DNA of 64,000 nt from contig NC_021592.1 of the NCBI RefSeq assembly GCF_000152265.2, positions 1,674,001 through 1,738,000 on the forward strand, given 5' to 3'. Made by a program: the position numbers and the translations under genes. Below are positions 24,556 to 28,303 of the stretch, one piece after another. The DNA is from Ferroplasma acidarmanus Fer1 (GTDB taxonomy: Archaea > Thermoplasmatota > Thermoplasmata > Thermoplasmatales > Thermoplasmataceae). The notes under the pieces were generated by a model that was not told the DNA's origin, did not search any database, and saw nothing but the letters and a program-made list of their open reading frames with translations. Numbering within the stretch: position 1 is the stretch's first letter; every line of letters starts with the position of its first letter.

Positions 24556-25275
24556 ATGTCAGGCAAAATTGTAATAACCGGGTCTAACAGGGGAATAGGG
24601 CGATCAATAGCAGAAAAAATGGCATCAGAAAAATATGGAATTATTATGGTTGACTATGATAATGCCGTACTTGATTCGGCTAAGTCGCTGAATTCCCGAT
24701 ATGGCAATGTTGAAGGGATAAAATGTGATGTATCAAGTTATGATGCCTGCGTTGAGGCTTTTTCAACAATAGATAAAAAAGAGATATACGGCATAGTAAA
24801 CAATGCTGGCATAAACAGAGATGCCCTATTCAAAAATATGTCATTTGATCAGTGGGACGCCGTAATAAAAACTGATCTTTACAGCATGTTCAACGTTACA
24901 AAGCAATTTGTTGATTCAATGATTGAAAATCTAAGTGGAAGAATAGTAAATATTTCTTCTGCAAGCTGGAACGGAAATGTAGGGCAGGCCAATTACTCAT
25001 CTGCGAAGGCAGGGGTTATCGGGTTTACTAAAACGCTTTCACGTGAACTGGGCAGGTATAATATAACATCAAATGCCATTGTTCCGGGATTCATAAAAAC
25101 TCCGATGACAGACCAGATGCCTGAAAAAATAAAGGAAAAGTTTATTGAAAAAATTCCATTAAAACGTATGGGCTCCGGTGATGATGTGGCAAACGCTGTT
25201 TCATTCTTGATGAAAGAGGATAGCAATTATGTCAACGGAATTTTACTTGAAGTAGGTGGAGGAATGTCCCTGTGA
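24556..25275 (+). CDS. SDR oxidoreductase, 3-ketoacyl reductase-like
   Basis: This is a 239-residue classical short-chain dehydrogenase. It shows the cofactor motif TGSNRGIG (8-15), NNAG (82-85), and the catalytic Ser (NISSAS), Tyr147 and Lys151 (YSSAK). Overall it resembles FabG/PhaB, which reduce 3-ketoacyl-ACP or acetoacetyl-CoA with NAD(P)H. Archaea lack a typical fatty-acid synthase, so a CoA-bound substrate is more likely. It is the first gene of a four-gene unit. Its stop overlaps the GTG start of the CoA ligase gene. Confidence 0.85.
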   Translation: MSGKIVITGSNRGIGRSIAEKMASEKYGIIMVDYDNAVLDSAKSLNSRYGNVEGIKCDVSSYDACVEAFSTIDKKEIYGIVNNAGINRDALFKNMSFDQWDAVIKTDLYSMFNVTKQFVDSMIENLSGRIVNISSASWNGNVGQANYSSAKAGVIGFTKTLSRELGRYNITSNAIVPGFIKTPMTDQMPEKIKEKFIEKIPLKRMGSGDDVANAVSFLMKEDSNYVNGILLEVGGGMSL

Positions 25276-26816
25276 AAACCATGGTCGAGGTACTTGAAGA
25301 TTCAAAAAGAAGCGATCCATTTATCACATATTTTAAGAATATTATGACCTATGGAGAATTTGAAGGATATTCAAATGCCGTTGCTGTAGAGTTTTCTATG
25401 TATTGCGATCCGGGTGACATTATAGCAATAATAGCAGAAAATATACCTCAGTTCCCCATAGTGCAATACGCGTCATGGAAAAATTCCTGCATTTTTGTGC
25501 CATTGAGCCCTCTGGATTCTGAGAATGAAATTACAGGGAAAATTAAGTTCATAGATGCAAGGGTGGTAGTAATCAGCAGTGAATTCAGGGAGAAATTTTC
25601 CAGCTTGATGGAGATACAGAGCCTCCATGTCTTATATACAGACCCACAGACTTTCGGGAAACTTCCGGATAATATGGCAGAAAAGTACATCACAGGAATA
25701 ATGAAAGAAGAATTAAACCTTCGACTCAAGAAAGAATTCAAGGGATATTATCCGGAACCAGGGAGTATAGCAATGCTTGTATTTACCTCCGGTACATCAG
25801 GCAGGCAGAAGGCTGCTGAGATAACCCATAGCAATATATATTCAGCTTCGTATATATACCGTGAATGGTATTCGGTACAACCACATGACAAAAACCTGTG
25901 TATCGCACCCTTCTTCCACATAACAGGGCTAATTTTTGGCATATCCCTGACAATGCTGTCGCATTCATCCATGGCATTGACGTACCGGTTTAACCCGGAA
26001 AATGCACTAGAAACTGTAGAATCAGAAAATACAACCATTACCATGTTTGTTGCCACGGCCTACCGGGCCATGATTAATGCATGGTCTAATGTTGATAAAA
26101 TCAAAACCCGGCTCTCATCGATGAGAATGTGGTCGGCAGGCGGAATGCCCATGCCCTATAAAACTGAAATCGAATGGAAAGCAATGTCAGGTAAGTGGGT
26201 ATATATGGCATATGGATTAACTGAAAGCACTTCTCCGGTTGCACTATGGGAATATCCATATACAGACAATATTCCATTATATAATGGCATAGTTACAGCT
26301 GGAAAACCGGCAAATTATACACGCATAGTCAGGGCAAGGGGCGGTGAACTGGTAGTTTCAGGGCCACAGGTTATAAGAAGATACTATAAGAATCCTGAAG
26401 ACACAGAAAAGGCATTTGGAAAATATGGGCTGAAAACAGGTGATATATGCTATATTGATCGCAAGGGATATATCTATATAATTGACCGGAAGAAAGACCT
26501 TATAGACGTATCGGGGTATAAGGTAGTTCCTGCCGAGGTTGAAAATGCAATAAGATCCTGTGATCATGTTGAAGACGTTGTAGTTGTTGGAGAAAATGAT
26601 GAATATAAAGGTGAAGTCCCGGTTGCATATGTTAAACTATCTTCAGTCCCAGACAACTATGAGGAAATGAAGAAAAGTATTTACAGCGTATGCAAAAAAG
26701 AACTGGCTAGATATAAAGTGCCTGCACGGATAATCTTTGTAAGGGACATGCCATTGAATGCATCAGGAAAGATTAAACGTTCAGGAATACATTCTGTAGA
26801 GGTGATTTATCACTGA
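25272..26816 (+). CDS. Acyl-CoA ligase (AMP-forming)
   Basis: The product has 514 residues and belongs to the ANL superfamily. It activates a carboxylic acid to its CoA thioester through an acyl-AMP. The phosphate-binding loop FTSGTSGRQK, the AYGLTEST motif, LKTGDICYID, the hinge DRKKDLIDVSGYKV and the C-terminal Lys in ASGKIKR are all present. The acid cannot be predicted. The GTG at 25272-25274 overlaps the stop of the SDR gene, and an in-frame ATG lies two codons further on. Its own stop overlaps the apparent CTG start of the thiolase-like gene. Confidence 0.88.
   Translation: MKTMVEVLEDSKRSDPFITYFKNIMTYGEFEGYSNAVAVEFSMYCDPGDIIAIIAENIPQFPIVQYASWKNSCIFVPLSPLDSENEITGKIKFIDARVVVISSEFREKFSSLMEIQSLHVLYTDPQTFGKLPDNMAEKYITGIMKEELNLRLKKEFKGYYPEPGSIAMLVFTSGTSGRQKAAEITHSNIYSASYIYREWYSVQPHDKNLCIAPFFHITGLIFGISLTMLSHSSMALTYRFNPENALETVESENTTITMFVATAYRAMINAWSNVDKIKTRLSSMRMWSAGGMPMPYKTEIEWKAMSGKWVYMAYGLTESTSPVALWEYPYTDNIPLYNGIVTAGKPANYTRIVRARGGELVVSGPQVIRRYYKNPEDTEKAFGKYGLKTGDICYIDRKGYIYIIDRKKDLIDVSGYKVVPAEVENAIRSCDHVEDVVVVGENDEYKGEVPVAYVKLSSVPDNYEEMKKSIYSVCKKELARYKVPARIIFVRDMPLNASGKIKRSGIHSVEVIYH
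26799..26806 (+). promoter_or_regulatory. Strong SD sequence that decides a CTG start
   Basis: GAGGTGAT matches the complement of the archaeal 16S 3' end and ends 6 bases before CTG at 26813. The first in-frame ATG lies 60 bases further on and has no SD. Confidence 0.6.
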
Positions 26817-27964
26817 TAAGGGGTTTTTCAGAAGCTATATACAAAAATTATGATGGAACAGCATATGAAATAATGAATGAGGCGCTAAACAAAGCACTTT
26901 CCATGGCAGGATTGGAGAGAAAAGATATTGATGGCTTTATGACAACATTTCTTCCTGGCGTGTTTGATGGAAACGTATACATGCATTTTTTTCCGGACCA
27001 GCTATGCAATTATCTTGGAATTAAGCCAAAATACATAGATTCCCTGGAATATGGTGGGCCTTCAGTGCTTTCTGCATTCTGGAGAGCTGAACACATTATA
27101 AAATCGGGGATGGCTGAAAATATTTTACTCCTGTTCGGAGGCAAAGGTTCAGCAGTAAGGAAAAAGAAACAGACAGTGGATTCTATTGAAAACCTTTATC
27201 CTGAAATTGCCAACACACCATATAAGACCCTGCTGTCAGGATATAATTATACAAATCCAGTTTCGGATTATGCCCTGCTGGCTCAGCGCCACATGAAAAT
27301 ATACGGGACAACAGATGAACAGAGGGCAGCACTCATAGTCAAACAGAGGGAAAATGCCAACAGGTCAGGGTATTCAATGTTTACCGGACCCATTACTGTT
27401 GAGGATGTACTTGGCTCTCCTATGATATCATCTCCACTGCACCTGCTGGAAATAGTATATCCTGTAGATGGATTCCACGCTTTCATTGTGTCAAAAAATG
27501 CAGGTAAGTTAAGGGAAATCCGTATAAAAAAATACGGAGAAGCACACCAGTCAGCACTTCCTACAGAAATAGATGATATAACTATTACTCCTGCAGCTGA
27601 AAGTTCATCCGGCTTCCGTGATAATATTAAAAGATGTGATTTCTATGAACTGTATGATTCATTTAGCATCACCGTAATGATACAGCTTGAGAACACAGGC
27701 ATTGTGCCTCCTGGCAAATCAGGTGAATTTCTGGAAAAAAATTCCATATCAGTTAATGGAGATTTTCCACTGAACACCGGAGGTGGAAGCCTGAACCGTG
27801 GGCAACCTGCCTATATGAGCGGGAGTGTATTGCTCTATGAGGCATTATTGCAGATGAATGGAATGGCAGGCAGAAACCAGGTTAAAAATCCTGACAAAGC
27901 TTTTATAAATGGAATGGGAGGATGGGCAAGGAACCATTCAGTCTCAATGATACTGGGTGAGTAA
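26813..27964 (+). CDS. Thiolase-fold protein without the thiolase Cys and His
   Basis: This 383-residue protein of the SCP2-thiolase/Ltp family continues the operon. Homologous sequence (IRGFSEAIYKN, as in IVGVGETPY) extends upstream of the first ATG at 26873, and the SD points to the CTG at 26813, which overlaps the previous stop as CTGA. Where thiolases have the nucleophilic Cys, this protein has LEYGGPS. The GHP histidine motif reads GQP (SLNRGQPAYMSG). ELYDSF is retained. Such proteins paired with DUF35 include Ltp2-type retro-aldolases, so C-C cleavage or formation by aldol chemistry on an acyl-CoA is more likely than thiolysis. The substrate is unknown. Confidence 0.75.
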   Translation: MIRGFSEAIYKNYDGTAYEIMNEALNKALSMAGLERKDIDGFMTTFLPGVFDGNVYMHFFPDQLCNYLGIKPKYIDSLEYGGPSVLSAFWRAEHIIKSGMAENILLLFGGKGSAVRKKKQTVDSIENLYPEIANTPYKTLLSGYNYTNPVSDYALLAQRHMKIYGTTDEQRAALIVKQRENANRSGYSMFTGPITVEDVLGSPMISSPLHLLEIVYPVDGFHAFIVSKNAGKLREIRIKKYGEAHQSALPTEIDDITITPAAESSSGFRDNIKRCDFYELYDSFSITVMIQLENTGIVPPGKSGEFLEKNSISVNGDFPLNTGGGSLNRGQPAYMSGSVLLYEALLQMNGMAGRNQVKNPDKAFINGMGGWARNHSVSMILGE

Positions 27965-28303
27965 ATGAAATTGAATGAAATTTATGAGGAATATAATAAA
28001 CATTTTTCCACAGGAATATTGCCATACACTAAATGCATGAATTGCGGAAAGGTATATTATTACCCACGTGATAGTTGCCCTGTATGTGGAAAAGGAGACC
28101 TGAAAATTATGCAATCTACAGGAAATGGGAAAGTATACAGCTACACAAAATTCAATAATGGTTTCTACGGCATAATATCGTTCAGCGAGGGGTTCCGTGC
28201 ATATATGGATATTTCTGGCAATAATCCTCAAATTGGAATGGAAGTAGAAATAAAATTTAAGAAAATAAAGGATAACCTACTGCCCTATGCAGAATTAAAA
28301 TAG
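27965..28303 (+). CDS. DUF35 zinc-ribbon/OB-fold partner protein
   Basis: A 112-residue protein with an N-terminal helix, a rubredoxin-like zinc ribbon (CMNCG and CPVCG, about residues 24-41) and a C-terminal OB fold, the DUF35 layout. DUF35 proteins form complexes with thiolase-fold enzymes: with thiolase/HMG-CoA synthase in archaea, where they bridge CoA intermediates, and with Ltp2 aldolases in steroid side-chain breakdown. The ATG directly follows the TAA of the thiolase-like gene, so a stoichiometric complex is likely. It is the last gene of the unit. Confidence 0.9.
   Translation: MKLNEIYEEYNKHFSTGILPYTKCMNCGKVYYYPRDSCPVCGKGDLKIMQSTGNGKVYSYTKFNNGFYGIISFSEGFRAYMDISGNNPQIGMEVEIKFKKIKDNLLPYAELK

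Follow-up and report, generated by a model that had tools for sequence, protein, structure and literature searches.

The stretch of DNA analysed here, referred to as the window, comprises 64,000 nucleotides of Ferroplasma acidarmanus Fer1 (NC_021592.1, positions 1,674,001 to 1,738,000), whose genome of 1.935 Mb is contained in one contig and whose relatives are Thermoplasmata. At positions 24556-28303 of the window, on the + strand, lies a unit of four genes encoding a short-chain dehydrogenase/reductase (SDR), an AMP-forming acyl-coenzyme A (acyl-CoA) ligase, a thiolase-fold protein without the catalytic Cys and His of thiolases, proposed here to be a CoA-dependent (retro-)aldolase, and a DUF35 protein. 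The first gene (24556..25275) was assigned to a FabG/acetoacetyl-CoA-reductase-like oxidoreductase from PF13561 (2e-52), the PDB entry of FabG 2p68 (3.5e-54) and the alignment of orthologues, and the ligase (25272..26816, GTG start) from PF00501 (2e-47) and PF13193 (9e-19). The thiolase-like gene (26813..27964, CTG start) was identified through PF22691, its similarity to 9myr, its position in a tree and the start sites of its orthologues, and the DUF35 gene (27965..28303), encoding a rubredoxin-like zinc ribbon followed by a short OB domain, through PF12172 and profile matches. The four genes are tightly joined: the TGA stop codon of the SDR gene (25273-25275) overlaps the GTG start of the ligase gene at 25272 (GTGA), the TGA of the latter (26814-26816) overlaps the CTG start at 26813 (CTGA), and the ATG of the DUF35 gene (27965) directly follows the stop codon of the thiolase-like gene (27962-27964). 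An earlier interpretation made from the letters alone, hereafter the sequence-only reading, had described exactly these joins and the pairing with a DUF35 gene, and the coordinates of all four genes bear out both.

The start of the thiolase-like gene is likely at 26813, because the orthologues, including a copy encoding a 100% identical protein that has ATG where the window has CTG (26813-26815), carry ATGA exactly at this site (ATGATAAGG or ATGATCAGT, compared with CTGATAAGG and its CTG in the window). The ATG at 26873, given in a mechanical list of open reading frames, was rejected as the start, since the conserved N-terminus would be lost. The CTG of the window, as opposed to ATG in all the orthologues checked, represents either a recent change of the start codon or a sequencing error. 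A scan for sigma-70 promoters and terminators remained at chance level, with models that are unsuited to archaea.

From a structural perspective, PF22691 (Thiolase_C_1, 8e-32) is the only Pfam family matched by the thiolase-like protein, and its top match in the PDB is 9myr (8.6e-45). This entry was recognised as Sal of Comamonas testosteroni (CtSal), because the Tyr and Cys of its YDCY motif and two Gln residues, at 326, 328, 371 and 376, correspond with an offset of 24 residues to positions 302, 304, 347 and 352 named in the literature (PMC12329534). The active site was read from a MAFFT alignment with the Cys-bearing thiolases 6esq, 7yvy and 6hsj, CtSal (9myr), Ltp2 of Thermomonospora curvata (TcLtp2, 6ok1), 4u4e, the orthologues and bacterial relatives, in which the PDB rows are the stretches matched in the searches. 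The column of the nucleophilic Cys (VEAAC/EAACAS or NNNC in thiolases) is occupied by Gly82, inside Y80-G81-G82-P83-S84 (27050..27064), and by Gly in nine of nine orthologues. The column reading HDCF/HDAF in thiolases corresponds to Y281-D282-S283-F284 (27653..27664), while the GHP/GHA column contains Gln331, inside G330-Q331-P332-A333-Y334 (27800..27814). The motifs LEYGGPS and GQP, which the sequence-only reading had placed at the sites of the thiolase Cys and His, are thus found in the aligned columns. Moreover, the alignment check for a true active-site Cys or His, set beforehand, revealed no substitute Cys or His in these columns in any of the nine orthologues, so that the sequence half of the check does not refute that reading. 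Gly82, Tyr281 and Gln331 are unchanged across the orthologues, which also share Ser283 and Tyr334; Tyr281, Asp282 and Phe284 are invariant in 19 sequences, and Gly81-82 are invariant out to the bacterial relatives.

In Sal, Tyr302 acts as the base and Cys304 as the acid, the latter tuned by Gln347 and Gln352, and Gly89 stands at the site of the lost Cys; in TcLtp2 the base is Tyr294, His296 lies in a YDHF motif and the acid is Tyr344 (PMC12329534). In the alignments, Gly82 of the window protein corresponds to Gly89 of CtSal, Tyr281 to the base Tyr302 of Sal and Tyr294 of Ltp2, and Gln331 to Gln352 of CtSal, while Ser283 falls at the position of Cys304 and Ser326 at that of Gln347. A role of Tyr281 as catalytic base is well supported by these alignments. 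Because Cys304 of Sal is replaced by Ser283, the best candidate for the general acid would be Tyr334, through a possible equivalence to Tyr344 of Ltp2: the latter aligns with Tyr334 in pairwise and HMMER alignments and with Gln331 in MAFFT, the placement of a gap deciding between the two. The GQP motif, presented in the sequence-only reading as a departure from thiolases, does mark the loss of the thiolase His, but it is a Sal-like trait, the same column being occupied by Gln352 in CtSal.

The relationship with Sal is supported by a maximum-likelihood tree of 31 proteins, which was rerun without four long rows. In the latter tree, the thiolase side is split from a Cys-less clade (100/99) and the window group is the sister of Sal (99/97); with the long rows kept, the window clade, a protein of the more distant genome G016 and Sal group together (96/94), so the placement was strengthened by dropping them. 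The window group is sister to the Sal clade on a long branch and is not nested within it; the bacterial YDSF/NHP proteins, together with 4u4e, follow next, and Ltp2 branches outside. The Cys-less clade, which includes many uncharacterised bacterial proteins besides the window protein, Sal and Ltp2, shows GG at the Cys column in every row in which that column is filled. The likeness to Ltp2-type enzymes put forward in the sequence-only reading can therefore be retained only in part: the protein falls among the Cys-less retro-aldolases Sal and Ltp2, apart from the thiolases, but its nearest characterised relative is Sal and not Ltp2. Furthermore, Cys-less proteins adjoining a DUF35 gene are common in bacteria and are also found in haloarchaea, so the window protein is not alone in having lost the Cys.

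As for the DUF35 protein, the zinc-ribbon family PF12172 was matched above the cut-off (2.4e-9) and PF01796 below it (1.7e-3), the OB part being weak; the zinc-ribbon residues Cys24, Cys27, Cys38 and Cys41 are invariant. A family profile searched against the PDB matched best 6htj (1.5e-36), followed by the DUF35 chains 6ok1_B (1.1e-25) and 9myr_B (1.8e-23). The first is Trf, the translation recovery factor of Sulfolobus, a short zinc-ribbon/OB DUF35 protein like that of the window, which acts as an mRNA-release factor (aIF2/mRNA) and whose likeness to scaffolds of CoA enzymes has been stressed (PMC6996347). The DUF35 gene of the window abuts the thiolase-like gene, and this favours a role of its product as scaffold subunit of the thiolase-like protein.

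The two remaining enzymes appear complete in their motifs. The SDR possesses both the Ser-Tyr-Lys residues and the TGSNRGIG motif and matches the NCBIfam model TIGR01830 at 8e-76, below its cut-off; the VDYD sequence after beta-2 suggests a preference for NAD(H). In the ligase, TSGTSGRQK, YGLTE, TGD and PLNASGKIK are all intact, and the top PDB match is a malonyl-CoA synthetase (2e-43), with no nearer relative. The ligase was also considered as a guide to the substrate and set aside, since its nearest solved structures (malonyl-CoA, succinylbenzoyl and feruloyl/coumaroyl ligases, 1e-35 to 1e-43) are not specific.

In sets of 293 and 390 genomes from this phylum, orthologues of the thiolase-like protein (70-100% identity) are found only in the same genus and in an Acidiplasma-like sister genus, and the next relative, in G016, has about 30-33% identity. 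The cassette is missing in one member of the genus with 99% completeness (G004). The four genes stay together across the Ferroplasma-like genus and its sister genus while the flanks vary: a nucleoside hydrolase gene flanks them in most Ferroplasma-like genomes and is replaced by a major facilitator superfamily (MFS) gene in G002 and by other genes in the sister genus. The neighbours were also tried and rejected as indicators of the substrate, the nucleoside hydrolase, deoxyribosyltransferase and dihydrodipicolinate-synthase-family flanks not being constant. In G002 the sugar-porter-like MFS transporter gene (L043:111-1427) lies just upstream in the same orientation as the cassette and might hint at an imported acid, although this is too little to build on. 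A metagenome-assembled genome (G003) contains two cassettes on different contigs (L041 and L042), with thiolase-like proteins 100% and 79% identical, possibly derived from two binned strains. The thiolase-like gene has a ratio of nonsynonymous to synonymous substitution rates (dN/dS) of 0.07-0.14, the ligase gene one of about 0.18 and the DUF35 gene one of 0.24-0.36, several dS values being saturated. With ratios of 0.07-0.36 at unsaturated dS and invariant active-site residues, the cassette is under purifying selection and is not a product of chance or decay.

On these grounds the thiolase-fold protein is probably a CoA-dependent (retro-)aldolase, with cleavage as the more likely direction, and the cassette would encode a small system that splits carbon-carbon bonds of acyl-CoAs (a lyase) or forms them (an aldol synthase). 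The ligase would convert an acid into its CoA thioester, and the thiolase-fold protein, in complex with DUF35, would act on a 3-hydroxyacyl-CoA by aldol-type chemistry. The beta-hydroxyl group would give up its proton to Tyr281, the C2-C3 bond would split to give an acyl-CoA enolate plus an aldehyde or ketone, and the enolate would be protonated by a second group, for which Tyr334 is the best candidate. Finally, the SDR may reduce or oxidise the freed carbonyl, or interconvert 3-oxo- and 3-hydroxyacyl-CoA. Complex formation, the aldol chemistry, its direction and the roles of ligase and SDR are what we infer from the locus. The gene order of the relatives is consistent with this scheme. In fact, the annotated examples at about 33% identity adjoin a DUF35/OB-fold gene, and most of these clusters also contain MaoC or crotonase/enoyl-CoA hydratases, acyl-CoA dehydrogenases, CoA ligases or transferases, and SDRs. 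Such an order would be expected for a hydration step feeding a retro-aldolase, the role of Shy in the Sal system, and it is guilt by association rather than proof. About 540 plasmid records contain relatives, true thiolases counted in.

Several observations weigh against an aldolase function. The protein shares only about 30% identity with any characterised aldolase, and the window group sits on a long branch (1.6-1.9 changes per column), so that long-branch effects are possible. The residue at the position of Cys304 is Ser, and this very change leaves CtSal without detectable activity (PMC12329534); since the essential Cys304 of Sal is a Ser in the window, the known mechanism is not simply transferable. 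By eye, the oxyanion residue Gln161 and the CoA-contacting Arg216 of CtSal align with Pro149 and Pro203, so that the oxyanion hole and the CoA contacts would differ. The equivalence to Tyr344 hangs, as said, on the placement of a gap. An AlphaFold2 prediction from seven sequences reached a pLDDT of 39.7, too low to judge the active-site geometry; viral contigs, searched to deepen the alignment, contained no relatives. Finally, the operon has no hydratase gene. Elsewhere in the genome there are four crotonase-family (enoyl-CoA hydratase) matches, one of them with an internal stop, and no match to MaoC (PF01575); the ligase could also supply the substrate directly from a 3-hydroxy acid.

Among the alternatives, the protein may run another reaction of the superfamily on a CoA ester, such as decarboxylation, hydrolysis, C-acylation of the PhlABC type or condensation. 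The versatility of the superfamily, the presence of PhlC and other DUF35-paired members among the matches, and active-site residues departing from every characterised member all speak for such a reaction, which is nevertheless unlikely. C-acylation and Claisen chemistry in the thiolase superfamily use a nucleophilic Cys, which the window protein lacks, and in the tree, which does not include PhlC, the protein groups with Sal rather than with the Cys-bearing rows. A catalytically inactive protein with a scaffolding or regulatory role, similar to chain-length-factor-like subunits, is likewise unlikely. Both the thiolase catalytic groups and the acid of Sal are gone, and the thiolase at the mevalonate locus of the same genome has also lost Cys and His, so that decay of the site does occur in the lineage; against this stand the slow evolution of the gene, the invariance of Tyr281, Asp282, Phe284 and Gly81-82 reported above and the lack of an adjoining active paralogue. 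A distinctly improbable variant is an aldolase working in the synthetic direction, in which an acyl-CoA enolate would be added to an aldehyde or ketone and the SDR would set the redox state. Aldol reactions are reversible, the SDR is FabG-like and the operon is devoid of hydratase and dehydrogenase, but the presence of a ligase suggests that a free acid is taken up, the relatives lie in catabolic-looking clusters and the VDYD motif suggests NAD(H), which is more usual in catabolism. A true thiolase with a nucleophile supplied by another residue is hardly credible: although homology models label the relatives as thiolases and Cys65 and Cys275 are present, three catalytic residues are substituted by Gly82, Tyr281 and Gln331, none of the nine orthologues has a Cys in the active-site columns, and three other, classical thiolase genes are present in the genome.

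Acid-mine-drainage Thermoplasmatales encode full fatty-acid oxidation (PMC3750248), and the genome contains acyl-CoA dehydrogenases and a beta-oxidation cluster besides the three classical thiolase genes; with these separate enzymes, the window protein is not needed as a thiolase. The literature on acyl-CoA metabolism in Ferroplasma yielded nothing on this cassette. If the thiolase-fold protein is a (retro-)aldolase, this archaeon may use an undescribed acyl-CoA route, as the sequence-only reading had proposed, and nothing points to steroids as substrates. A more specific and unlikely version would be a self-contained archaeal route, made up of ligase, aldolase/DUF35 and SDR, for a hydroxy acid other than a steroid, with a catalytic set (a Tyr base, Gln, Ser and a second Tyr) unseen in characterised thiolase-fold aldolases. 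A 3-methyl-branched acid from the organism's own isoprenoid lipids would be an example, because ordinary beta-oxidation cannot oxidise a tertiary 3-hydroxyacyl-CoA.

Two other thiolase-fold proteins of the SCP2 type without the Cys are encoded in the genome. The one at the mevalonate locus (G000:C1:1010032-1011180; L082:5973-7184) reads VESSTASGG, with Thr at the Cys site, and GDP in place of GHP; its gene adjoins a DUF35 gene and a probable gene for 3-hydroxy-3-methylglutaryl-CoA (HMG-CoA) synthase (351 aa), an assignment based on its location and a weak match to PF00108. Among the relatives of the thiolase (L015-L032, L090, L091), those of the same family carry Thr or Ser in place of the Cys, with GNP, GFP or GDP in most cases, those in families f3 and f4 have Ser at the Cys site, and those in a Thermoplasma-like genome and the outgroups keep Cys and GHP. 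Judging from this distribution, the thiolase subunit of the acetoacetyl-CoA thiolase/HMG-CoA synthase/DUF35 system at the entry of the mevalonate pathway seems to have been stripped of its thiolase chemistry step by step within this taxonomic order, and acetoacetyl-CoA is presumably supplied by the classical thiolases instead. A literature search found no mention of the loss of Cys and His in this protein. The other (G000:C1:673107-674375; L083:5108-6376) reads IEGGGATGG without Cys, has YDAY and keeps GHA, and its gene is accompanied by its own DUF35 gene and by one for an acyl-CoA dehydrogenase, which overlaps.

In the literature cited here, every characterised thiolase-fold aldolase belongs to the bacterial degradation of steroids. 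That acidophilic archaea have fixed a relative of these enzymes, in a gene context smaller than any other found here, suggests that this chemistry is wider than steroids. Among the known systems, Sal-Shy of C. testosteroni, an aldolase of the bile-acid side chain that cleaves 22-hydroxy bile-acid CoA, shares with the window the thiolase fold, Gly at the Cys site, the base Tyr of the YDxx motif, Gln at the GHP column and a DUF35 partner gene. It differs in having YDCY instead of YDSF, Gln347 instead of Ser326, and a DUF35 domain fused to the MaoC hydratase in Shy, whereas that of the window stands alone and no steroid genes were seen. Ltp2-ChsH2 of T. curvata, an aldolase of the cholesterol side chain, is similarly Cys-less, with YGG before the pocket, YDxF, a DUF35 partner and possibly a second Tyr, but it lies farther in the tree, the His of its YDHF is Ser in the window and its loop at Tyr344 is three residues shorter, the equivalence to Tyr334 being unproven. 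The thiolase/DUF35 system partnered with HMG-CoA synthase has in common the SCP2-type thiolase fold and the DUF35 subunit; however, its thiolase bears Cys, HDCF and GHA, and HMG-CoA synthase is absent from the window operon. The SCP2-thiolase-like protein TbSLP has YDCF and no DUF35 partner, in contrast to the YDSF and adjoining DUF35 of the window. Finally, the uncharacterised bacterial pairs of a "thiolase domain-containing protein" and an OB-fold protein, and 4u4e of Sphaerobacter, show GG, YDSF and an adjoining DUF35 at about 33% identity, often with ligase and SDR nearby as in the window. At the position of the window's Gln they retain a His (NHP or THP), and their operons are richer, with hydratases and acyl-CoA dehydrogenases. 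The four genes of the window offer a small testable system, and the answer would extend to this large class of unassigned bacterial homologues.

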